The translations under genes and the position numbers were made by a program. A model generated the notes under the pieces. The model was not told where the DNA came from and ran no database searches. It saw only the letters and a list, made by a program, of their open reading frames with translations. From assembly GCF_032999765.1 (NCBI RefSeq), contig NZ_CP136051.1:5784501-5848500 (forward strand): a stretch of DNA of 64,000 nt, read 5' to 3'. Position 1 is the first letter of the stretch, and each line of letters opens with the position of its first letter. Source of the stretch: Imperialibacter roseus. GTDB taxonomy: Bacteria; Bacteroidota; Bacteroidia; Cytophagales; Cyclobacteriaceae. Of the stretch, positions 203 to 10,989 are shown in pieces.

Positions 203-562
203 TTATCCACATTTTCTGTTTTGTAATATATATAACTAAATTTTTAAAAGATTAATTGAAGAGTATTATTAAGTCTGTGGATTTGTGGATAAGAAAATTA
301 GCATAAGTCGATTGTAGATCAAATTGGAGTTTCAAACAATATGTTAACATTGAAACGCAAGCGATAGTGCAAAGGAGGGAGATTGTTGATAGATGGGGAG
401 TTAGTGATGTGAGTATCTTTTTTGACTTAAGTTGTTGGTAAGAGGTAAGTGTAATGTGCACAAATCAGCTTAGCTGAAATTGTGTCGGATCGGTTCTGTT
501 AGATTGAATCGAGTTGTGGAGAACTTGGGCAGTTAAGCACAGGCTTAGCTAAGTTTTCCACT
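203..562. other. oriC: Putative chromosomal replication origin (oriC) with DnaA boxes
   Basis: A non-coding gap that carries several marks of a bacterial origin. Perfect DnaA boxes lie at 203-211 (TTATCCACA, + strand) and 284-292 (TGTGGATAA, facing the other way). They enclose a very AT-rich stretch (about 215-270) that could be the duplex-unwinding element. Near-matches are at 455-463 (TGTGCACAA, 8/9), 515-523 (TGTGGAGAA, 8/9), 276-284 (7/9) and 554-562 (7/9). Hand counts of the + strand give G 43 / C 48 for 1-200, G 68 / C 25 for 301-540, and about G 107 / C 51 over six sampled lines (360 bases) of the next gene. The skew therefore switches here. The two parS-like sites 5 kb away and the nearby mnmG fit an origin region. 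No dnaA gene is in the window. Confidence 0.72.
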
Positions 563-2303
563 AAAAGTTGATCTCAACATTTTCAAGTGTCCAGTTTTCT
601 CTAACGTTAAAGAATTCGGGATATATGTACACGCTTTCGGGTTCTATTCGCTTCAGGCTGTTTCCGGTAGACCACACGCCGTCGTTGTTATCATCAACTA
701 GGATCCTGAAGGTATAGTCTCCGGGTGGGATGTTTTTGAACTCGAAAGTAGACGTTCCTGGTTGTGAGGAAACTACTTTGTACTTGTTGGTGACTAGCTG
801 AAGTGTATAGTTTGTGTAGTCTGTTGAAATAGTTCCTCTCACTATCCCCCGCTCTTCGCTGTTTATGAATTTTAGTGGGATGTTTTCAGTGTAGGAAGTG
901 TCTCCGTCTACAGAAAAGAAGGTTCCCTTTGGAAGTTTGACTCTGGTATAGTTGTCTTCGACTTTGTCTAATAGTTTTTTGATTCTACTGTATCGTTTAA
1001 AGTCGAGCGAAGATGTGTCTGATTGCAAAGAGTCAGTTAATTGTTGGTATCGGAGTTTTTCATTGGCAACTATCTTTTTGTCGATTTGAGTGTTGATAGT
1101 AACTTTTGTTTTGTGGTTGTTCCAAATGATGGTGTCGATCTTGACTGGATGTTGAACAAGTGTATCTATGGAAACTCTCATGGAGTCGGCGATGTAGTTT
1201 TTTGCTACTGGTTTTGTAAACGATAATGTAAATGTCGTTTTCTCGAGTATTTGCTCGTCTTTGGTAGGGATGGTGGTAAATTTAAACGGTGGAATGCTTC
1301 GCTTGCTTGATGTGAATTTTAGGTAAGTGGTATCAATGGTTTGGTTGTAGGTGCTGTCTATGGAGGTGATTGCGATTTGCAGGCTATCCTTTTTCGGATT
1401 TGAGACAGGATAGAAAACAATACCTCTCCCATCTGGTGTTAGGTTCGCTTCAATTGTCCAATTGGGAAGCTTCAAAGAATCCAGGATTTGAACGCTAAAA
1501 TCTTTGAGGGGTTTGTTATAGCGGCTTTCGAAATATATGCCCGACGTGCGGGAGGTTAGTTGTGCCAGTGGGCGTACGTCGTTGCGTGTGATAGGTATGG
1601 TTAGAGAGTCGATGTTGTATGTAAGTGCTAAAGTGTCGGCGATGAATCCATGGGGCTCGTCGTTGGGCTCGCACAAATTGTTTTTGTTCTTGTCCTGGAA
1701 GGCGTAGAGTCTGTAGTTCCCGTTTTTAAGGTTTTCTATTGAGTAGGTACCATCTTCAGCAGTTTTTGTAAAATAGAGAGGGCGCTTGTTAAATATATCA
1801 GTCGTGTCGTTGGCTTGGTAGAGGGCTACTGTGGCTTCTTTGATTGGCTCGTGGGTGAGCAGGTCGATAATGCTACCTGCTATGGATAGAGAGTCGATGT
1901 AGGTAGTGGTACTAAATGCCAGTATGATGTTTTCAGCATCGTTGTTTTCCGTGATGTCGGAGATTGTACTATTGAAGTTCAAGGTATAGGTGGTGCTGTC
2001 AGCAAATGGATTTTCGAAGTCGAGGGTGATGCTGGTTTTTTTGATGACGACATCAAATTTGTTCTGATCATCTGGCGTAATTATCAGCTTGGTCTTGATT
2101 TGGTCTTCTTTAATGAATTCGTCAAACACCAATGTTATTTTTTGATCTTTGAAGTTAAGTGATTTGTTGATCGGGTAAGATTCAAGAAGCGTGGGGGGAA
2201 TTGTATCCTTTGCTCCGCCCGTTACAGGCTGTTGGCTTGCGCAGGACGTGTAAAGGATAAAGGCATAGCAGGCAAGAAAGGCGGAAAGAAGTATATTTTT
2301 CAT
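561..2303 (-). CDS. Ig-like domain surface lipoprotein (Big_5 type)
   Basis: A 580-residue lipoprotein of unknown exact role. The signal peptide ends in a lipobox-like YTSC with Cys21, so it is probably anchored to the outer membrane. Residues about 33-130 (from KDTIPPTLLESYP) resemble the bacterial Ig-like Big_5 fold common in Bacteroidota surface proteins. At about 140-210 is a carboxypeptidase-regulatory/CNA-B-like beta domain with the typical NLKNGNYRLYAF strand, followed by an acidic DKNKNN loop. A second such domain lies near the C terminus (NIPPGDYTFRILVDDNNDG). Its start overlaps the stop of the upstream methyltransferase (ATGA), so the two are probably translationally coupled. The G-rich + strand means the coding strand is unusually C-rich, consistent with lagging-strand mutation bias beside the origin. 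The family assignment is good; the function is unknown. Confidence 0.85.
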   Translation of the reverse strand: MKNILLSAFLACYAFILYTSCASQQPVTGGAKDTIPPTLLESYPINKSLNFKDQKITLVFDEFIKEDQIKTKLIITPDDQNKFDVVIKKTSITLDFENPFADSTTYTLNFNSTISDITENNDAENIILAFSTTTYIDSLSIAGSIIDLLTHEPIKEATVALYQANDTTDIFNKRPLYFTKTAEDGTYSIENLKNGNYRLYAFQDKNKNNLCEPNDEPHGFIADTLALTYNIDSLTIPITRNDVRPLAQLTSRTSGIYFESRYNKPLKDFSVQILDSLKLPNWTIEANLTPDGRGIVFYPVSNPKKDSLQIAITSIDSTYNQTIDTTYLKFTSSKRSIPPFKFTTIPTKDEQILEKTTFTLSFTKPVAKNYIADSMRVSIDTLVQHPVKIDTIIWNNHKTKVTINTQIDKKIVANEKLRYQQLTDSLQSDTSSLDFKRYSRIKKLLDKVEDNYTRVKLPKGTFFSVDGDTSYTENIPLKFINSEERGIVRGTISTDYTNYTLQLVTNKYKVVSSQPGTSTFEFKNIPPGDYTFRILVDDNNDGVWSTGNSLKRIEPESVYIYPEFFNVRENWTLENVEINF

Positions 2304-3181
2304 TTCTTTTGGAAAATGTATATCATACTGCTGTATTGTGAGGTTCTTGAACCGTAAATATTTGATTTACAACCATTTATAATGGATTTTAATATTTTGT
2401 TGCCGTTGTTGAGATGTGTTTCTGATAACAGACTAATATAAAATGAATCAAGATACAGCGGAGCTTTTTGTACGAAGGAAAGCCGGTTTGATTTCAATAA
2501 CATTTTGATGTTTTCATCGTCGAAATGAAAAAGGTGGCGTGGCACATCGTATGCGGCCCAATTCTCTTTATAATGTTGGGCATCCCAGCTCTTGGTGTTT
2601 GGAACAGCGATTACGACATGGCCGTCTTTATTCAACAGTTTCTTGAGTTGTTTTATTGTGGTGTTGAGGTCGTGCACATGTTCAAGCACGTGCCACAATG
2701 TAATGACGTCAAATTTGGCGGCTGACTCTTTAGCCTCACTTAATGTTTGGTAAACCAGCATCTCCTTACTTCTTGCTTTCGATAACCCAACATCAGAGGG
2801 CTCAATGCCTGTTACCTCGTACTTGTTCGATTGCATGTACTGCATAAACTGCCCAACACCACAGCCGTAGTCCATTAGTCTGCTGCCTGGTTTCGCTAGT
2901 CTTTTGACCAACCGAAACTTGTACCACAGTGTATAGCGCTGGGCGAGCGAATACAGTCTGCTCATCAAGCTGCCGTCGCTGTTATGCGACAGGTAGCTGC
3001 TTGAGTCATAGAACTGGGAAATAGTTTCTTTGCTGGGCCTTGGGTTGGTGATTAGCAGGCCACAGGATGAGCAAATAGAAATGGCAAAGCTTTGTTGAGA
3101 AACAAGATAATCTTTGCAGATCAGGCTGTTTCTTAGATCGGTGTTTGTGCAAATGGGGCACTCCTCTATTCGTTCGTACAT
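2300..3181 (-). CDS. SAM-dependent methyltransferase with N-terminal zinc ribbon
   Basis: A class I methyltransferase of about 293 residues. An N-terminal zinc-ribbon-like motif (Cys8/Cys11 and Cys37/Cys40 in CPIC and CSSCG) precedes a Rossmann core with SAM motif I at DYGCGVGQF and the post-II segment ITLWHVLEHVHD. This architecture is typical of UbiG-like methyltransferases that act on small molecules or glycan precursors; the substrate cannot be told. A TTG at 3187 is also in frame, but the ATG at 3181 has a GGGGAGG Shine-Dalgarno about nine bases upstream and is preferred. The gene begins a few bases after the mnmG stop and its stop overlaps the next start, so it sits inside the mnmG transcription unit. 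Confidence 0.85.
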   Translation of the reverse strand: MYERIEECPICTNTDLRNSLICKDYLVSQQSFAISICSSCGLLITNPRPSKETISQFYDSSSYLSHNSDGSLMSRLYSLAQRYTLWYKFRLVKRLAKPGSRLMDYGCGVGQFMQYMQSNKYEVTGIEPSDVGLSKARSKEMLVYQTLSEAKESAAKFDVITLWHVLEHVHDLNTTIKQLKKLLNKDGHVVIAVPNTKSWDAQHYKENWAAYDVPRHLFHFDDENIKMLLKSNRLSFVQKAPLYLDSFYISLLSETHLNNGNKILKSIINGCKSNIYGSRTSQYSSMIYIFQKK

Positions 3182-3187
3182 GTCCAA

Positions 3188-5053
3188 TTACCTCCCCATG
3201 TATACCATTAGTATTGAGATATCTGCTGGGTTAACGCCGCTTATTCTGGAGGCTTGCCCTAATGTGTGTGGTTTGATTTTGAGTAGTTTTTCTCGTGCCT
3301 CCGAAGATAGCGCTGTTATTTTATAGTAGTCAAAGAGCGGATCTATCCTGTGGTTTTCCAAAAGGTGAACTTTGTCGGCTAGCTCTTTCTCTTTCACGAT
3401 ATAGGTTTCGTATTTGATTTCTATCTCGCTCTGTTCAATAGCGTCTTTCATATAAGGCTGTAGTGCATCAGCGGTTTTAGGATGCAGTTTGAGCAGTTCG
3501 GCAAGATCGACTTGTGGCCGTTTCAAAAGTGTATAGGCGGATGTTTTCTCTCTAATGCCTGCGGTGCCTATGGCATCGAGTCCATCGTTGATTTCTTCGG
3601 GAGTATATTTGAGTTGTTTTAAAACGGTGTGTATTTGATTGCTTTGGTTGATTTTGTTTTTCGTTGCTGTTAGACGGTGGTCGGAGGCCAAACCAATGGC
3701 ATGGCCTTTCTCGGTTAGTCTTATGTCGGCGTTGTCTTGTCTCAGAAGTATGCGAAACTCAGCCCGGGAAGTAAACATCCTGTAAGGTTCTTCAGTGCCT
3801 TTGTTAATAAGGTCGTCAATCAGCACACCAATATATGCTTCAGATCTTGTCAGGATCAGTGGTTCTTTCTCGCTGTTTTTTAGGTGGGCGTTAATGCCTG
3901 CCATCAGTCCCTGCGATGCCGCCTCTTCATAGCCGGTAGTACCATTTATTTGACCAGCAAAGTACAGATGCTGAATGAGTTTGGTTTCTAAGGTGTGATT
4001 GAGTTGCGTGGGTGGGAAGTAGTCGTACTCGATCGCATAGCCTGGCCTGAACATCCTGGCATTCTCAAAGCCCGGTATTTTCCTTAGTGCTTTTATCTGG
4101 ACGTCTTCTGGTAGCGAGGTAGAAAAGCCATTGACATATACCTCCACGGTGTCCCATCCTTCGGGCTCAACAAATATCTGGTGCCGGTCTCGCTCCGAAA
4201 AGCGGTTGATCTTGTCTTCTATTGAAGGACAATAACGTGGGCCTATTCCTTTAATTCGCCCAGCAAACATTGGGGACTTTTCGAAACCAGTCTCCAGGAT
4301 AGTATGCACTTCAGGGTTTGTGTAGGTGATATAGCAGCTTGCTTGAGTTGCTAAGGGAGTGGTTTCTTCACTGTAGGAAAATTTGCCAGGCTCGGCATCT
4401 CCCTTTTGTTCCTCCATGGCGTCGTAGTTGAGGCTTCGTCCATCAACCCGCGGGGGTGTGCCAGTTTTCATTCTGCCTGACTCAAAGCCAAGACTTTGCA
4501 GCTGCTCAGTTATTCCTTTGGCAGCATGCTCACCGGTGCGGCCCCCGCCAAACTTCTTTTCTCCAATATGGATGACGCCATTAAGAAAGGTGCCGTTAGT
4601 GAGGACAACTGCGCTTGACTCGATCTCTATTCCTAAACTTGTCTTGACACCAACAGCTTTTCCGTCTTTGACGAGCAATCCTACTACCATTTCCTGCCAA
4701 AAATCCACGTTAGGGTTGCGCTCCAATGTAAGCCTCCATTCCTCCGCAAACCTCATTCTGTCGCTTTGAGCTCGTGGGCTCCACATGGCTGGGCCTTTCG
4801 ACTTGTTGAGCATCCTGAACTGGATCATGGTTTTGTCGGTGATAATCCCCGACATGCCACCCAGGGCATCTATCTCACGCACTATTTGTCCTTTGGCTAC
4901 GCCACCCATCGCAGGGTTACAAGACATCTGAGCGATAGTGCCCATGTTCATTGTTACAAGCAGTACTTTGGAGCCCATTGTGGCTGCGGCATGTGCAGCT
5001 TCACATCCGGCGTGGCCCGCTCCTACTACTATTATATCGTATTTAGGAAACAT
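3188..5053 (-). CDS. mnmG: tRNA uridine-5-carboxymethylaminomethyl synthesis enzyme MnmG (GidA)
   Basis: A full-length FAD enzyme (621 residues; the family is about 620-630). With MnmE it installs the cmnm5 group on the wobble uridine of certain tRNAs, acting in the cytoplasm. The FAD-binding GAGHAG motif is at residues 11-16. The family signatures GPRYCPSIEDKI and AGQINGTTGYEEAA are both intact, and the C-terminal helical MnmE/tRNA-binding region ends in SRISGVNPADISILMVYMGR. mnmG is a classic origin-proximal gene, and here it lies between a putative origin and two parS-like sites. One parS-like palindrome begins only nine bases upstream of the start codon and may influence expression when bound by ParB. 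The methyltransferase and Ig-like lipoprotein genes follow with almost no gap. Confidence 0.97.
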   Translation of the reverse strand: MFPKYDIIVVGAGHAGCEAAHAAATMGSKVLLVTMNMGTIAQMSCNPAMGGVAKGQIVREIDALGGMSGIITDKTMIQFRMLNKSKGPAMWSPRAQSDRMRFAEEWRLTLERNPNVDFWQEMVVGLLVKDGKAVGVKTSLGIEIESSAVVLTNGTFLNGVIHIGEKKFGGGRTGEHAAKGITEQLQSLGFESGRMKTGTPPRVDGRSLNYDAMEEQKGDAEPGKFSYSEETTPLATQASCYITYTNPEVHTILETGFEKSPMFAGRIKGIGPRYCPSIEDKINRFSERDRHQIFVEPEGWDTVEVYVNGFSTSLPEDVQIKALRKIPGFENARMFRPGYAIEYDYFPPTQLNHTLETKLIQHLYFAGQINGTTGYEEAASQGLMAGINAHLKNSEKEPLILTRSEAYIGVLIDDLINKGTEEPYRMFTSRAEFRILLRQDNADIRLTEKGHAIGLASDHRLTATKNKINQSNQIHTVLKQLKYTPEEINDGLDAIGTAGIREKTSAYTLLKRPQVDLAELLKLHPKTADALQPYMKDAIEQSEIEIKYETYIVKEKELADKVHLLENHRIDPLFDYYKITALSSEAREKLLKIKPHTLGQASRISGVNPADISILMVYMGR

Positions 5054-5062
5054 ATATTTTCA

Positions 5063-5078
5063 TGTTCCACGTGGAACG
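5063..5078. promoter_or_regulatory. parS: Putative parS site 1 (ParB/Spo0J binding)
   Basis: The sequence TGTTCCACGTGGAACG forms a 14-bp perfect palindrome (GTTCCACGTGGAAC). It matches the broadly conserved centromere-like parS consensus (TGTTNCACGTGNAACA) at all but the last base. It lies in the 83-bp gap between ybeY and mnmG, nine bases upstream of the mnmG start. ParB binding here would nucleate chromosome segregation near the origin. No parA or parB gene is in the window. Confidence 0.8.
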
Positions 5079-5120
5079 TCTAGTCATTATTAGTGTTAGC
5101 AACAGAGTTGGAAGAAATAA

Positions 5121-5136
5121 TGTTCCACGTGGAACA
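5121..5136. promoter_or_regulatory. parS: Putative parS site 2 (ParB/Spo0J binding)
   Basis: The sequence TGTTCCACGTGGAACA is a perfect 16-bp palindrome and a full match to the parS consensus. Its centre is 58 bp from that of the first site, and it ends exactly where the ybeY stop codon begins (5137). Two copies this close in a short gap are very unlikely by chance. Confidence 0.85.
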
Positions 5137-5562
5137 TCATAGATCCGGGAGCAAAGATAAACAAGCATCCTCTTTTTTTCTCATAAGCTCATTGTCGGCA
5201 CTTGTCTTGTCTTTGTAACCACACAAGTGAAGTATGCCATGGATCATGACTCGATGCAGTTCGGTGTCAAAAGGAAGATTTAGTTGGGTAGCGTTCTCCT
5301 TCACACGATCGACACTGATGAATATGTCACCTTCGATTAGTTCTTCCTGTTCCGAATTATCAAACGTAATGATGTCGGTAAGTGTGTCGTGATTGAGATA
5401 TTGCACGTTCATATTGTGCAGGTAGTCGTCGGAGCAGAATATATAGGAAATCTCTGATAGTGTGTGTTTCTCCAGGTGTATCACTTCTTTGATCCAACGA
5501 CGAACCTTATTAGGAGAGGAAAGCTTAAAAGAAACGTCTTCACTAAAGAAGGTGATTTTCAT
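5137..5562 (-). CDS. ybeY: rRNA maturation endoribonuclease YbeY
   Basis: A 141-residue UPF0054-family metal-dependent RNase involved in 16S rRNA 3' processing and ribosome quality control. The signature HGILHLCGY carries the first two metal-binding histidines near residues 108-112. The usual third ligand in GYDH is replaced (GYKDKT); I recall this form from other Bacteroidota, so it is probably lineage-typical rather than a defect. The gene begins one base after the stop of the HATPase gene, so the two are tightly coupled. It ends flush against a parS-like palindrome. Confidence 0.93.
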   Translation of the reverse strand: MKITFFSEDVSFKLSSPNKVRRWIKEVIHLEKHTLSEISYIFCSDDYLHNMNVQYLNHDTLTDIITFDNSEQEELIEGDIFISVDRVKENATQLNLPFDTELHRVMIHGILHLCGYKDKTSADNELMRKKEDACLSLLPDL

Positions 5563-5563
5563 T

Positions 5564-5965
5564 CTAGCCCAGGTAAAAGATCAGATCCACTTTCTTGCCG
5601 CCTTCATGGAACTTAACTTCGTCACACAGGTTCTTCATAAGAAAGATGCCTCTTCCACCGGGCTTCTCAAGGTTTTCAGGTGCAGTTGGATCGGGAAGGT
5701 GTTGGTAGTCGAACCCAGCGCCCTCGTCCTGAACGGTGAACTGAAGGTTCTCGTTGAGTAATGATAATTGAAGCAGTACGTTCTTGTGGGCGTCTTTTCC
5801 GTTGCCATGCAGTATAGCGTTGTTTACGGCTTCTGTCACAGCAATCATAATATTGCCATAGATATCATCTTCAAGACTGAATCGTTCTTTAGCGTTGTCG
5901 ATAAAACTCTCAACGATTCGAATATTCTCAGGAAGAGAAGGAATCTCGATTTTGATATTATCCAT
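5564..5965 (-). CDS. RsbW-like HATPase (anti-sigma/serine kinase type) regulator
   Basis: A 133-residue stand-alone GHKL ATPase domain of the HATPase_c_2 type. The N-box is EAVNNA (residues 45-50), the G1 box DEGAGF (80-85) and the G2-like box GGRGIFLM (103-110). This small form is characteristic of anti-sigma factor kinases such as RsbW and SpoIIAB, which bind or phosphorylate partner proteins. No sigma factor or anti-anti-sigma gene is adjacent. It lies 10 bases after the DUF4175 stop and one base before ybeY. The partner is unknown; the fold assignment is secure. Confidence 0.85.
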   Translation of the reverse strand: MDNIKIEIPSLPENIRIVESFIDNAKERFSLEDDIYGNIMIAVTEAVNNAILHGNGKDAHKNVLLQLSLLNENLQFTVQDEGAGFDYQHLPDPTAPENLEKPGGRGIFLMKNLCDEVKFHEGGKKVDLIFYLG

Positions 5966-5976
5966 TTTTAAGCGGG

Positions 5977-8900
5977 TTAATTGCTGCCAATACGTTTAAA
6001 GTACTCATTTACTTCTTTTTTGTAGTAAGGGTTCAATTTGGGAGGAACAGTTTTAAGCAACTCAATTTCCTTTTCTTTTAGCTGCTTATATTCTTCAAAA
6101 GCTGCTGGGATCTTTCTTTCAAAATCTCGTGCGGCCTCCCCTTCTCTTTCCTTACTGAGCTCTCTTTCTCTTTCAGAGTTCTCAGCTTCCAAAAGCCTTG
6201 TTACAATGTCTTCCTGCCTTTCCTGGCTAATGTTGGCTAGTCGCTTATTAACAAGATCTCTTTCGGTTTGTTCCATTTTTTTGATAGCATCTTGCAAGCC
6301 ACCCGGGCCACCCTCTTTGTCGCCGCCCATCTTCTGTTGCATTGCTTCGAGCTCTCGTCTAATCATTTCCTGCTCGGCAGCAAGTTTAGCCAATTCTTCC
6401 GATAGTTGTCTGCCTGTTTTTCCGCTTTTTTTGAGATCATTAATTTTCTTGCTCAGTTCGCTCTGAAGATCGCTTAGGCCCGGCATGTTTTTCTTTTGTC
6501 CTTTTTTCCCTTTTTGCGGTGAGCCCATTGCGTCAGCCATTTGCTGTTGCATCTGCTGAAGCACATCGTCGAGTAATAGAGCCAGGTTGTTCATCGATGT
6601 CATTGAGAACTGCTGCTTGCTGATCGCCAGCGATTTGTTCCGGTCTTTAAGCGCATCCAGGCTTTGATCCATGTATTCATTGAGTGCACCCACTTCTCTT
6701 GTTACAAACGAGGCAATTTGAAAAACCCTGTTAGCCAGCGCAAGGAGACTGTCTTTAACGATAATGGCATCGTCCTTTATCTTTAATTGCTCCTGAGATA
6801 ATTCGAGAAACCTCGGGTCACTTTGGTTTACCTCTTTGAAGTTGTTCATCAGATTTTCCTGGCTGAAAGAGAGCTTAACGAGGTTATCTACAATATCTCT
6901 GAGGTTATCGAGGTTTTCCTCAAGCATCTCCATCTCCATGTTGCTTTGCATTTGCTGCATCTTCTCACCCATCTGCTTCATTTGCTGAGCACTTTTCTTT
7001 TGATTGTCAGACGCCTTTTTCCTCTTCTGTTCTTCCAGGTTTGAAATAGACTCCTCCTGGTTCTTCTCCACTTCTTCTTTTTCTTCGCTGAAATCCGGCA
7101 TGCTTTCTGGGTTATCGAGCTCCTGGTTGAGCTCGTTTAACTCTTCCATGTCTTTTTGAAGCTCCTGAAACTCTTCTTTGATTTCTTCCTGCTCCTTAAT
7201 GAGATCTTCTTTTGAGTTCTCAGAGTTCTCAGTCTTCTCGCTTAGTTCCTCCTGCTTCTTGCTTGTTTCTTCCAAATCCTGAACTATTTCTTCAAGCTTG
7301 AAGTCAAATTTCATCTTGTTGAAAAGCTCCAGCGCCCGTTCTAGCTCTTTTTCAAGGTTTTCTTCCTTGTTTTCTATCTGGTTCATCATTTTCTGAACCT
7401 CACCAAGCTGTGACTTCTCCTCCAGCAGTTTTTTCAGCTCGTCATAGAGTTTTTTAGTTTCATCATCCAGCAGTTCGTCCATGAGCGACTGAAGCTTCTC
7501 CATTTGGTCTTTTAACTTGGGGCTGCTCTCTGAAAACCGTTCTCTACGCTCATTCAGGTCTTTGTTTTGGTTTTTTAGCTTTTCTATGTTTTCACTAAGC
7601 TCCTCTTTTTTGTCCAGCAAGTCCTGTATCAGCTTCTCATCCTGCCAGTCCATCTTTTTCTTGGTCTTCAGCCGATTCTCAATCTCCTTTATCTGATCCT
7701 GAATTTCTTTGGCCTGGTCAAGACTTTTATCAATCTGTTTTTCGGCACCCTGCGCCTCCTTCGCCAACGACTCCTTCAACTCTTTCCTTGTCGGAACCTT
7801 CATATAATACAGACCTGTCCGGGTCGATTTATGCCCGTTAACCTCGTCATTATCAGTCACCTCCACGTAGTAAGCAAGCGTTTCGCCTTCCTTGAGATTC
7901 ATGCTGTCGATGCGCCACTGGTAGTAAAAACCCTGCGACGATTGCTTTTTGTCGAGAGGAAGCGGAAGCGTGCTGAACAGGGACTCTTCCCTGGCATTCT
8001 GAGTTTGGTATTTAATGGCAAGCTTGGTAAGGCCATAATCGTCGCTCACTGATCCGCCCAGCACAATGAAGCTGAAAAGAGTGGTGTCCTGGAAGATTTC
8101 TGCGTGAATTTCCGGCGCCTTGTCTTTCACCACTTCGATCCGGTACCTGATCCTGTCTTTATTTTTGCTGAATTTGTTGGCCAGCAACACCTCATAGTAT
8201 TGAGGGTTAAAGAATGTTTTTTTGACGTCAAATAGTTGATTGTCAGATATTTGGGATGAAAATGGCTCGTCGTCCTTATCAAACTTCAGCCACAAACTGT
8301 CGGCTTCGGTTGTGCTGAACTGCCAGTTGATTTGGCTTCCTTCCGGCACTTCCACGTTGCCTATGTTTTCCAAAAGAACATCTTGTTTTCCGGTATAGGA
8401 TGGGAAGTCAAGAAACACGTTGAAGTTTTTGAGCAGGGGCCGATTGTGTAGTGTAATCTGATATTCTGCACTTGAGTATCCTGCCGCTTCGAACTTGAAA
8501 TTGGTCTTCACCAACATTTTCGGAAAGGTAAACTCAAAGAGGCCTTCGGCGTTTTCATTTAGCTTGATGCGGCGGCCGTTACTTTCCAGGTACACATTTT
8601 CCGGGATGTTATCGCCTTCAATGCTCATCTTCAATTGAAAATCCTCATTACGAAAACCATCAAGGGACTCATTCAAAAGATTGAAGGTAAACGGCGGCGG
8701 CGGGGTGAAGGTCTTGTTATATTGTATGATTCGGGCGGCACTTTCCGTAAACAGCTGGGGAACAAGCAGAAGCAATATAAGTGTGATGCCGGCGGGAATG
8801 GCTAGATACCTTAAAAAGCTAAGGTTCGCATTTATTTTTATTGCATTGACGAACTTTATTGTTGAGAGCTCATGGCTCTTTTGATCTATACTGGCTATAA

Positions 8901-9276
8901 GGAGGCTTTCATCCTGGTTGCTAATTTTTTGAAGCTGAAGCACATTCAGAAGTTTGTCTTTTACTTCAGGAAAGAACTGCCCTATTTGACGGGCTGCCTC
9001 GGCGTCATCAAGGTTTTTTCCTCCTGAATAGATCTCCCACAGAGGCTTTATAATCCGGATCAGGAGTATGCCAGAGGTGAGAATGACAAAAGAAAACAAC
9101 AAAAAACCCCTGATCCACGTGCCGAAGCGAAAATTGAACTCTAATACGGTAAACGTCAAGAAAAGGCAAAGGACCACAAGAAGGAAGTAGAGAACACCTT
9201 TAACCAACTTGTCGGTATAGTATTTCTTTTTGTAATCATGAAGTTGCCTCTTGATGGCGTCGATTCCTGTATTCAT
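5977..9276 (-). CDS. DUF4175 family membrane protein with long coiled coil
   Basis: A protein of about 1099 residues of the Bacteroidota DUF4175 family, with no assigned function. Two close hydrophobic segments lie near the N terminus and a third at about 165-185, followed by beta-rich domains. From about residue 510 onward there is a long Glu/Lys/Gln-rich coiled-coil region (repeated LEEK/QEEL patterns, then a Gln/Met-rich stretch around QQMQQQMADAM) and a charged C-terminal tail. A TTG at 9306 and an ATG at 9300 are also in frame. The ATG at 9276 is preferred because GGAGG stands five bases upstream of it and the protein then opens MNTGIDAIKRQLHDYKK. It heads the series with the HATPase gene, ybeY and mnmG. 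The layout suggests an envelope-spanning structural or sensing role, which is inference. Confidence 0.85.
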   Translation of the reverse strand: MNTGIDAIKRQLHDYKKKYYTDKLVKGVLYFLLVVLCLFLTFTVLEFNFRFGTWIRGFLLFSFVILTSGILLIRIIKPLWEIYSGGKNLDDAEAARQIGQFFPEVKDKLLNVLQLQKISNQDESLLIASIDQKSHELSTIKFVNAIKINANLSFLRYLAIPAGITLILLLLVPQLFTESAARIIQYNKTFTPPPPFTFNLLNESLDGFRNEDFQLKMSIEGDNIPENVYLESNGRRIKLNENAEGLFEFTFPKMLVKTNFKFEAAGYSSAEYQITLHNRPLLKNFNVFLDFPSYTGKQDVLLENIGNVEVPEGSQINWQFSTTEADSLWLKFDKDDEPFSSQISDNQLFDVKKTFFNPQYYEVLLANKFSKNKDRIRYRIEVVKDKAPEIHAEIFQDTTLFSFIVLGGSVSDDYGLTKLAIKYQTQNAREESLFSTLPLPLDKKQSSQGFYYQWRIDSMNLKEGETLAYYVEVTDNDEVNGHKSTRTGLYYMKVPTRKELKESLAKEAQGAEKQIDKSLDQAKEIQDQIKEIENRLKTKKKMDWQDEKLIQDLLDKKEELSENIEKLKNQNKDLNERRERFSESSPKLKDQMEKLQSLMDELLDDETKKLYDELKKLLEEKSQLGEVQKMMNQIENKEENLEKELERALELFNKMKFDFKLEEIVQDLEETSKKQEELSEKTENSENSKEDLIKEQEEIKEEFQELQKDMEELNELNQELDNPESMPDFSEEKEEVEKNQEESISNLEEQKRKKASDNQKKSAQQMKQMGEKMQQMQSNMEMEMLEENLDNLRDIVDNLVKLSFSQENLMNNFKEVNQSDPRFLELSQEQLKIKDDAIIVKDSLLALANRVFQIASFVTREVGALNEYMDQSLDALKDRNKSLAISKQQFSMTSMNNLALLLDDVLQQMQQQMADAMGSPQKGKKGQKKNMPGLSDLQSELSKKINDLKKSGKTGRQLSEELAKLAAEQEMIRRELEAMQQKMGGDKEGGPGGLQDAIKKMEQTERDLVNKRLANISQERQEDIVTRLLEAENSERERELSKEREGEAARDFERKIPAAFEEYKQLKEKEIELLKTVPPKLNPYYKKEVNEYFKRIGSN

Positions 9277-9386
9277 TTTGGCCTCCTTCTTTTCATCCAT
9301 TTGCAATTCGCAAAGGGTATGATACTAGTTATAACGAATATCGTGAAAAGAATGTAGTTAAAAACGGAAAATTGTTTGAATAGACT

Positions 9387-9406
9387 TGCTTTCGCTGTCG
9401 AAAGCA
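9387..9406 (-). terminator. Hairpin downstream of exonuclease III gene
   Basis: An 8-bp perfect stem (TGCTTTCG / CGAAAGCA) with a 4-base loop lies 13 bases past the exonuclease III stop on the minus strand. There is no clear T-run on the 3' side, so it is a possible rather than a certain rho-independent terminator. Confidence 0.4.
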
Positions 9407-9418
9407 GCCAAAAAACCG

Positions 9419-10183
9419 TTATTTAATGCTAAGTCCAACGGGGCAATGGTCAGAATGAACCACTTGTGGGAGAATTTCAGCGTGTATCAAGTCTGCTGCC
9501 ATCTCCTGAGTGGCGAGGTGGTAATCAATCCGCCACCCCTTGTTGTTTGCTCTGGCATTGGCCCTGAACGTCCACCAGCTATACTGGTGAGGCGCTGTGT
9601 TGAATTGGCGGAAGGAATCCACAAAGCCGGTATCTATGAATTCGCTAAGCCACTCACGTTCCTCCGGCAAAAAGCCAGAACTATTTTTGTTGGACACGGG
9701 GTCGTGGATATCGATCGGCTTGTGGCAAATATTATAGTCGCCGGAAATAATGAGTTTGGGATGGTCGGCCATTACTTTTTTTATGTAGTCAGTAAACTCA
9801 CCCAACCATTGCATTTTGTAGTCCTGTCGTTCGTCTCCTGAAGAACCTGAGGGAACGTAAACGCTCATAACGGAGTAGTGCTGGAAGTCGGCCCGAATAA
9901 CCCGGCCTTCGTAGTCCGACTGATCGATGCCGGACCCGTACTCCACATGTTTGGGTTTAGTTTTTGATAGAATGGCAACACCACTATAGCCTTTTTTCAC
10001 TGCGGGAAACCAGTAGCAGTGGTAGCCGAGGTCTTCGAACAACGAAACGGGAATTTGCTCTTTGTGGGCCTTAAGTTCCTGAAAACAAACGATTTGCGGA
10101 TCTTTCTCCTTTAGCCACTGCGTTATACCCTTGGAAACAGCCGACCGAATTCCGTTTACATTATATGATATTATTCCAGTCAT
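9419..10183 (-). CDS. xth: Exodeoxyribonuclease III
   Basis: A 254-residue AP endonuclease / 3'-5' exonuclease of the EEP superfamily, which cleaves at abasic sites in base-excision repair. All core motifs are present: NGIRSA near the start, the metal-binding QELK (Glu36), YVPSG, the catalytic GDYNICH, the DNA-contacting WWTFRANARANNKGWRIDY, and the C-terminal HSDHCPV with the catalytic Asp-His. Length matches the XthA/ExoA family. Its ATG overlaps the stop of the upstream small gene (TAATG), so the two are translationally coupled. Confidence 0.96.
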   Translation of the reverse strand: MTGIISYNVNGIRSAVSKGITQWLKEKDPQIVCFQELKAHKEQIPVSLFEDLGYHCYWFPAVKKGYSGVAILSKTKPKHVEYGSGIDQSDYEGRVIRADFQHYSVMSVYVPSGSSGDERQDYKMQWLGEFTDYIKKVMADHPKLIISGDYNICHKPIDIHDPVSNKNSSGFLPEEREWLSEFIDTGFVDSFRQFNTAPHQYSWWTFRANARANNKGWRIDYHLATQEMAADLIHAEILPQVVHSDHCPVGLSIK

Positions 10184-10536
10184 TATAATATACTTTCTTT
10201 TTCAAAATACTCTATTACATGTATTTTTAGCAGCTTTTCTTGCTCACCCGTGTCAAAATGAGGTAATTTTTTCATCATCTTCCAGTGAGGCCAGCCGTCC
10301 TCGTCTATGCCCTCCAGGGCGTAGAAGCCAGAGAAACTGAGTATTTTGCAAATGGCAATGTGCATTAAGTCCTGCTTTTGTTCTTTGGTGAATGTCCTTC
10401 GCCCCTTGCCCAGTTCTTGTACTCCGATAAGAAAAAGTACGGAGTTGAGATCGGCCGGTTTTTTACCGATCATATTTTCTAGTTTGCCAAGTAGCGCCTG
10501 CCACTCCCTCTCAAGATCCAGGTCTTTTTTAAACAT
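10183..10536 (-). CDS. Conserved small protein of unknown function
   Basis: A 117-residue soluble protein with no motif I can name. It is mostly helical, opens MFKKDLDLEREWQALLGKLE, and ends in a charged segment (HVIEYFEKESIL). There is no signal peptide and no membrane segment. It is sandwiched in a tight run: it overlaps the upstream AhpD-like gene by eight bases and shares its stop with the start of the exonuclease III gene. This coupling suggests a real, co-expressed protein, possibly linked to oxidative DNA damage; that link is inference from position only. Confidence 0.75.
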   Translation of the reverse strand: MFKKDLDLEREWQALLGKLENMIGKKPADLNSVLFLIGVQELGKGRRTFTKEQKQDLMHIAICKILSFSGFYALEGIDEDGWPHWKMMKKLPHFDTGEQEKLLKIHVIEYFEKESIL

Positions 10537-10882
10537 TTTGTGGTGTTAGTTTTAATTCGTCCCAAAATTCAACTGCCCTTCTCAGGTGGGGAATTACTAT
10601 CGTTCCCCCAATAAGTGTGGCAATGCCAAACACCTCGTCCATCTCCTTGTCGGAGCAGCCGAGCTCATAACATTTGCCCAAATGATAGCGTACACAGTCA
10701 TCGCACCTGAGCACCATGGAGCAGGCCAGCCCCAGCATTTCTTTGTTTTTCACATCAATGGCCCCCTCACTGAAGGCATTGGTGTCGAGGTTAAATATTC
10801 TTTTAACAAGCTTGTTGTCAGAAGAAAGGATACGCTCATTCATCTTTTCTCTGTAGTTATTGAATTCGTCTACTTTGCTCAT
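10529..10882 (-). CDS. AhpD-like carboxymuconolactone decarboxylase family protein
   Basis: A 117-residue all-alpha protein with the AhpD-type redox motif C-D-D-C-V-R-Y-H (Cys60, Cys63, His67). Proteins with this CxxCxxxH motif are peroxidase- or disulfide-reductase-like and often act in oxidative-stress defence. The start at 10882 (MSKVDEFNNYREKMNERI) is chosen; an upstream ATG at 10918 would add 12 residues that look unrelated to the family. It is the first gene of a three-gene unit with a small unknown protein and exonuclease III, which fits a theme of peroxide protection plus repair of oxidised DNA. Confidence 0.85.
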   Translation of the reverse strand: MSKVDEFNNYREKMNERILSSDNKLVKRIFNLDTNAFSEGAIDVKNKEMLGLACSMVLRCDDCVRYHLGKCYELGCSDKEMDEVFGIATLIGGTIVIPHLRRAVEFWDELKLTPQNV

Positions 10883-10989
10883 ACGGTCTGTCTGCGTTAT
10901 TAAAGGAGTCACTCTCATGCTCCGGCCTGTTTTTGAAATAGGGGAATACAGTTTGTGGTTGCGTCCGCGATTTTTTCTATATTTTACCT

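Follow-up and report, generated by a model that had tools for sequence, protein, structure and literature searches.

A syntenic, DnaA-box-rich spacer as the probable chromosome replication origin of Imperialibacter

Genes and features of the locus

The analyzed window, i.e., the whole 64-kb stretch of DNA under study, covers positions 5,784,501–5,848,500 of C1, the single contig of the 6,747,663-bp (6.75-Mb) genome of Imperialibacter, a member of the order Cytophagales. Close to its left end lies a 358-bp spacer (203–560, no strand), which is proposed here as oriC on the basis of an inward-facing pair of DnaA boxes, synteny, and a switch in GC skew. The spacer is flanked on the left by the start of a TPR protein gene (1–202, − strand), whose 605-aa open frame runs past the left edge of the window and matches the Pfam TPR family over its first 300 residues. 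The right flank is a gene for an Ig-like (Big_5) protein (561–2303, − strand), which adjoins the TPR gene in relatives as well. The mnmG (gidA) gene, recognized by its Pfam GIDA match, is located at 3188–5053 (− strand), 2.6 kb from the spacer. Together with genes for a methyltransferase, YbeY, an ATPase, a 1109-aa protein, and others, the Ig-like and mnmG genes form a long minus-strand run at 561–10918. Since the likely genes of this run all lie on the minus strand, they would be transcribed toward the proposed origin and head-on to its rightward fork.

An earlier note, made from the sequence of this DNA, had remarked that no dnaA gene lies beside the site, and this was borne out: the sole PF00308 match in the genome (E ≤ 0.001) was located at C1:391, which on a circular contig would be 963 kb from the site. 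The dnaA gene is remote from the corresponding spacer in relatives too, by 0.90 Mb in G036 and 0.86 Mb in G030. Three and four extra weak PF00308 matches with equal or near-equal scores were detected in G013 and G030, respectively, in frames of 243–290 aa; these possibly represent helper ATPases of insertion elements.

DnaA boxes and the AT-rich stretch of the spacer

The spacer carries two perfect copies of the DnaA box TTATCCACA facing each other, at 203–211 (+) and 284–292 (−), exactly as had been described, and no further perfect copy occurs in the 64-kb window. The left box touches the start codon of the TPR gene, and most of the 29 scored spacers (see below) lack a box at this position. 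The right box is the second half of an overlapping tandem, sharing one base with the weak DnaA box AAATCCACA at 276–284 (−), which has two mismatches. At least two 8/9 matches had been claimed further to the right. For TTATCCACA itself there is one true match of this kind, TTCTCCACA at 515–523 (−), and the claim holds only with the looser consensus TTWTNCACA, for which four right-hand boxes were found within one mismatch (455–463, 515–523, 533–541, and 554–562). The first of these, the weak DnaA-like box TTGTGCACA (455–463, −), fits the loose consensus only.

The motif itself is not enriched, given 48 perfect boxes genome-wide (26 + 22) versus 29 + 35 for a reversed-pattern control, and seven occurrences of the looser TTWTNCACA in the window versus 6.93 expected. 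A perfect inward pair within 100 bp occurs a single time in the genome, at the spacer, and random placement of 48 sites yields such a pair in 0.8% of simulations. Three boxes were counted in the spacer, compared with 0.14 in shuffled sequences, i.e., the DnaA-box cluster by which an oriC is commonly recognized is present.

The intergenic spacers of 60 bp or more between 5.6045 and 6.0885 Mb number 153; two of them, the site and a spacer at 5.717 Mb, are alone in holding two or more boxes with up to one mismatch or in exceeding the score of one box. A denser box cluster elsewhere had been named as a finding that would count against the site; the spacer at 5,717,003 ties with it on box score, and none of the 153 spacers ranks above it. 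Skew is negative on both sides of the 5,717,003 spacer, and the tandem pattern described below is unmatched there. Further clusters of boxes, at 6.023 and 6.033 Mb, sit within coding sequence. As a separate observation, the intergenic spacer at C1:5717160–5717250 (L079:12660–12750), 67 kb from the proposed origin, holds two perfect boxes as direct repeats at a spacing of 21 bp, plus a degenerate box in the opposite orientation.

The AT-rich stretch reported between the two perfect boxes was confirmed, with 82% AT at 212–283. Only 29 of the 483,929 windows of 72 bp in a 484-kb region are equally AT-rich, and 15 of these begin within 194–213. The segment at 212–275 (no strand), part of a 72-bp stretch that few others in the 484 kb equal in AT content, is a likely DNA unwinding element. 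An AT-rich element adjoining DnaA boxes is a further feature expected of an oriC; here it is present in terms of AT content, and unwinding is predicted from it.

Synteny and a conserved core in related genomes

A match to the TPR protein was found in 51 of the 59 genomes searched, own genome included (E ≤ 0.001), although some of these matches are weak (G002, G021, and G049). At the level of the class, the TPR gene was detected in 85 of 99 genomes, and in G001, which belongs to the same genus, the protein is identical over 300 residues. Twenty-one of the 51 genomes have no cut locus; 30 loci were cut, and 29 of them could be oriented by the adjoining Ig-like gene, while L131 (G012), a short piece without this gene, was left out. 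In all 29 scored loci, our own included, the DnaA boxes of the TPR/Ig spacer exceeded those of all 200 shuffles. G013, G030, and G036 each have the mnmG ortholog close to this spacer.

Alignment of the spacers revealed a shared core, consisting of a TATTA-rich block, usually a few bases, and then TGTGGATANGTGGATAA, which comprises two tandem boxes with a one-base overlap. TGTGGATANGTGGATAA, initially derived by aligning four loci that are all among the 29, was found within four mismatches in 26 of the 29 spacers, with a mean of 2.2 mismatches versus 5.9 in shuffles; on the other strand, it shows 2 to 6 mismatches. In Imperialibacter, a DnaA-trio-like array of five NAN triplets, GAA-GAG-TAT-TAT-TAA, is located at 258–272 (+), 3 bp from the tandem boxes. 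Its run of five compares with a shuffled mean of 2.8 and, taken alone, exceeds chance by a modest margin. Three or more NAN triplets are present in 23 of the 29 spacers, and shuffled sequences average about 2 to 4.7, so the triplet count by itself says little and the aligned block is the stronger sign.

The pattern of tandem plus TATTA block, TATTANNNTGTGGATNNGTGGATAA, allowed up to three mismatches, has one match in the own genome, at the site; a reversed control also matches once, which makes this uniqueness weak evidence. An exact, stricter tandem pattern likewise has one own-genome match, and its control has none. The strict pattern recovers 10 of the 29 source spacers and was detected in two of the 99 genomes of the class, namely our own and G152, both of the same family. 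Because it misses 19 of its own 29 source spacers, its absence elsewhere says little. Generalization of the tandem motif to the class was nevertheless rejected on the basis of these two genomes, and the motif is supported within the order only. The match in G152 is exact (G152:C2:219513–219537); this genome has no TPR match, and the origin there may have other neighbors.

Judged by the alignments, the conserved feature is the tandem at 276–292 with its upstream triplet array, and not the inverted pair. The inward pair was considered as a conserved architecture and discarded: among the 20 of 59 genomes that have such a pair (own included), only four have it at the TPR/Ig spacer, i.e., G000, G001, G024, and G036, with G024 carrying another one at the ClC locus.

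GC skew in Imperialibacter and its relatives

A jump in base composition on the plus strand had also been put forward. The counts of 43 G and 48 C at 1–200 were reproduced, and at 301–540 we obtained 69 G and 25 C instead of 68 and 25. A jump of such size is seen at 0.1% of positions in the 484 kb and at 0.3% in the window. Across the 29 scored spacers, GC skew ranges from −0.15 to +0.60 with a median of 0.09, so the jump is mostly local to the spacer and not a property of the replichore. The use of this change as origin evidence was therefore abandoned, two stretches of about 200 bp being no test of replichore skew.

Skew of the own genome was computed from a sample of 1,403,000 of its 6,747,663 bases (20.8%), with a gene-level model on 993 open frames. 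Negative values prevail between about 2.6 and 5.78 Mb, and positive ones from about 6.05 Mb via the record start to about 2.5 Mb, with exceptions in each arm. At the site, the sign changes from mostly minus, which holds for about 3 Mb on the left, to plus; at about 2.5–2.6 Mb it changes from plus to mostly minus, this return being placed at about 2.52 Mb. Skew is positive at 5.785–5.865 Mb and negative again at about 5.865–6.045 Mb. The latter block (C1: about 5865000–6045000), which starts 80 kb to the right of the site, may be a rearrangement or an acquired segment. The same leading or lagging placement was shared by 13 of 16 reciprocal ortholog pairs in the block, by 9 of 11 and 11 of 13 in the flanks of the site, by the single pair at 6.045–6.0885 Mb (1/1), and by 3 of 11, 7 of 16, and 11 of 18 elsewhere (86 pairs altogether); these counts are no usable guide to an inversion of the block and, if anything, speak against a simple recent one. 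T-A skew in the own-genome sample gave no support for the site and was uninformative. An Rfam search for SSU rRNA as a direction marker returned nothing in the own genome, and this search was positive in only 9 of 14 control genomes.

The cumulative-skew minimum had been expected at the spacer. The outcome is mixed: the raw minimum, calculated over a 364-kb stretch, was found at 5,945,207, and the gene-level model has its optimum at about 6.05 Mb and a sharp secondary one at 5.78 Mb. In relatives, gene-level 4-fold skew placed the spacer as the best of all scanned origins in the single-contig genomes G036 (gain 32.3) and G013 (gain 24.2), where gains are log-likelihood units over no switch and where addition of the spacer to the test grid and deliberate sampling of its flanks favor the spacer at fine scale. 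The skew signal of G030 is weak, with the spacer 3.1 log units from the best position.

These data have to be weighed against a reading in which the origin is near 6.04–6.05 Mb, 5.785–5.865 Mb is a flipped-skew segment, and the TPR/Ig spacer is a DnaA-binding regulatory site. With a single switch, the gene-level optimum indeed falls at 6,050,001, and the site (grid point 5,780,001) fits 11.4 log units worse; the optimum lies there rather than at the site because the block at about 5.865–6.045 Mb is reversed. Since origins at 5.785 Mb and at about 6.045 Mb imply the same four skew segments, skew alone cannot choose between them. The boxes and the relatives, however, argue for the spacer: the multi-box spacers among the 153 are the site and the one at 5.717 Mb, the clusters at 6.023 and 6.033 Mb are coding, and in both G036 and G013 it is the syntenic TPR/Ig spacer that fits best. 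We therefore regard an origin at 6.04–6.05 Mb as improbable.

The proposed origin and its predicted mode of opening

A role other than replication initiation could be imagined for the spacer. At loci such as datA and DARS, DnaA boxes outside the origin decrease or increase the DnaA-ATP level. The spacer might serve DnaA titration or regulation in the manner of datA, or be a TPR gene promoter under DnaA control. Such a role would suit the contact of the box at 203–211 with the TPR start codon, and secondary DnaA elements do occur in this group. It fits poorly with the switch of skew at the spacer in G036 and G013 (and, with the caveat of the reversed block, in the own genome), with the triplet array and AT-rich stretch that adjoin the tandem boxes, and with the relatives, which carry a multi-box cluster across the spacer and not one operator; we consider it very unlikely. 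An origin at dnaA (C1:391), i.e., at the record start, where records conventionally begin, was rejected as extremely improbable: neither the first 2.4 kb of the contig, which contain dnaA, nor its last 1.5 kb hold a DnaA box with up to one mismatch, there is no skew switch at dnaA, and the fit falls 47 log units short of the best.

The spacer at 203–560 is thus very probably the start site of chromosome copying. The candidate origin that the earlier note had placed at 203–562 is supported by the box-rich syntenic spacer (29 of 29 loci), by skew in G036 and G013, and by the sign switch in the own genome. Boxes, AT-richness, conservation, synteny, and skew were all computed, in the own and in related genomes. 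DnaA binding, unwinding, helicase loading, and the origin activity of the spacer are proposed by us, with binding, melting, and loading modeled on systems studied elsewhere. DnaA, supplied by a gene 963 kb away, would bind the tandem at 276–292 together with the flanking and scattered boxes, and a DnaA filament would extend from the tandem onto the plus-strand triplets at 258–272. The AT-rich stretch at about 212–275, beside the TPR start, would then melt, the helicase would be loaded, and two opposite forks would leave the site and meet near 2.5 Mb. We have high confidence in this joint explanation, in which the spacer is oriC, DnaA opens it through the tandem boxes and triplets, and the two forks meet near 2.5 Mb.

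Among the papers listed in a literature search, judged by title and start of abstract and with DoriC outside its scope, none appeared to deal with this locus or with the origin of an Imperialibacter. With this spacer, a specific locus can be tested as origin in a group whose records may open at dnaA even though replication probably starts elsewhere. Its position bears on growth estimates from read depth, on replicating plasmids, and on the interpretation of strand bias. Plasmids that replicate from an oriC are already employed in Cytophaga hutchinsonii (PMC5288383, PMC7906972).

A second DnaA element with three boxes

A second, rigidly spaced DnaA element was identified outside the window: measured from start to start, an opposed box follows the first box after 78 bp, and a third box follows the opposed one after 20 bp. 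The own-genome copy lies at C1:5,528,017–5,528,123 (L229), 257 kb from the proposed origin. The 16 pair-bearing genomes without a pair at the TPR/Ig spacer all fit this element. Altogether, it was present in 20 of the 26 loci tested, 15 of them with exactly 78/20 and five with 76–77/20–21 spacing; besides L229, the loci that have it are L089–L092, L095–L103, L105–L107, L226, L231, and L232. None was found in 2.49 Mb of sampled background. As 19 of the 26 loci had been picked for their inward pair, the evidence from these 19 that does not depend on the selection is limited to the third box and the narrow spacing. The element is missing from six loci: four of origin type and the ClC loci of G030 and G013.

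Fourteen of the 20 loci have the element next to a ClC channel gene (four of these were found via ClC), and TlpA and redoxin genes lie on its other side in eight loci. In G019, G031, and G034, it is located beside mazG/GH3. The center of the element is loosely kept; alignment of 15 loci gave CTGATTATCAG as its majority consensus. The distance between element and origin spans 17 to 580 kb in the eight genomes with both on one contig; measured to the TPR gene, it is about 188 kb in G036, 147 kb in G014, 184 kb in G045, 261 kb in G001, 580 kb in G040, 550 kb in G017, and 17 kb in G007.

In kind, the three-box element resembles datA or DARS and is a possible site of that type. We tentatively suggest that this family of Cytophagales possesses a two-site DnaA system, in which the TPR/Ig origin with its unusual overlapping tandem and trio-like array is combined with a three-box, datA/DARS-like element that controls the firing frequency; this is possible, though the odds are somewhat against it. 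The three-box element may be a more novel observation than the origin.

Comparison with known systems

The origin itself is a well-supported yet ordinary find; according to PMC4755523, which cites DoriC, origins far from dnaA are common in Bacteroidetes. The oriC of Prevotella intermedia chromosome I described there is similar in that DnaA boxes cluster where GC skew shifts, a long way from dnaA. It differs in locus and organism, and the sections of PMC4755523 available to us contain no analysis of tandem boxes or trios.

The closest mechanistic parallel to the core of the spacer is the basal unwinding system (BUS) of Bacillus subtilis, predicted at the origins of 1755 of 2070 species (PMC8287927). 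The search rules given in that work are a DnaA box with up to two mismatches, a second tandem box with up to four, a spacer of up to 16 bp, and at least three NAN triplets (PMC8287927). The site has the same build of a box with a weaker tandem box, a short spacer, and at least three triplets, i.e., the perfect box at 284–292, the box at 276–284 with two mismatches, and five triplets 3 bp from the tandem. Unlike in BUS, the 9-mers of the spacer overlap by one base (8-bp register), and its triplets, read 3′ to 5′ as AAT, TAT, TAT, GAG, and AAG, are not mainly GAT; unwinding here is a prediction from sequence. The strand and side of the triplets match those of the B. subtilis BUS. The overlapping tandem box and the adjacent triplets are therefore a clear substrate for asking whether the BUS mechanism holds in Bacteroidota.

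The proximity of mnmG/gidA also speaks for the spacer, this gene being a familiar neighbor of oriC, as in E. coli and Yersinia, according to Ori-Finder 2022 (PMC10225481). The gidA-side oriC of these bacteria resembles the spacer in the nearby mnmG, the DnaA boxes, and the AT-rich stretch (PMC10225481). In contrast to E. coli and Yersinia, mnmG is 2.6 kb off in Imperialibacter with two genes between, and the immediate flanks of the spacer are the TPR and Ig-like genes.
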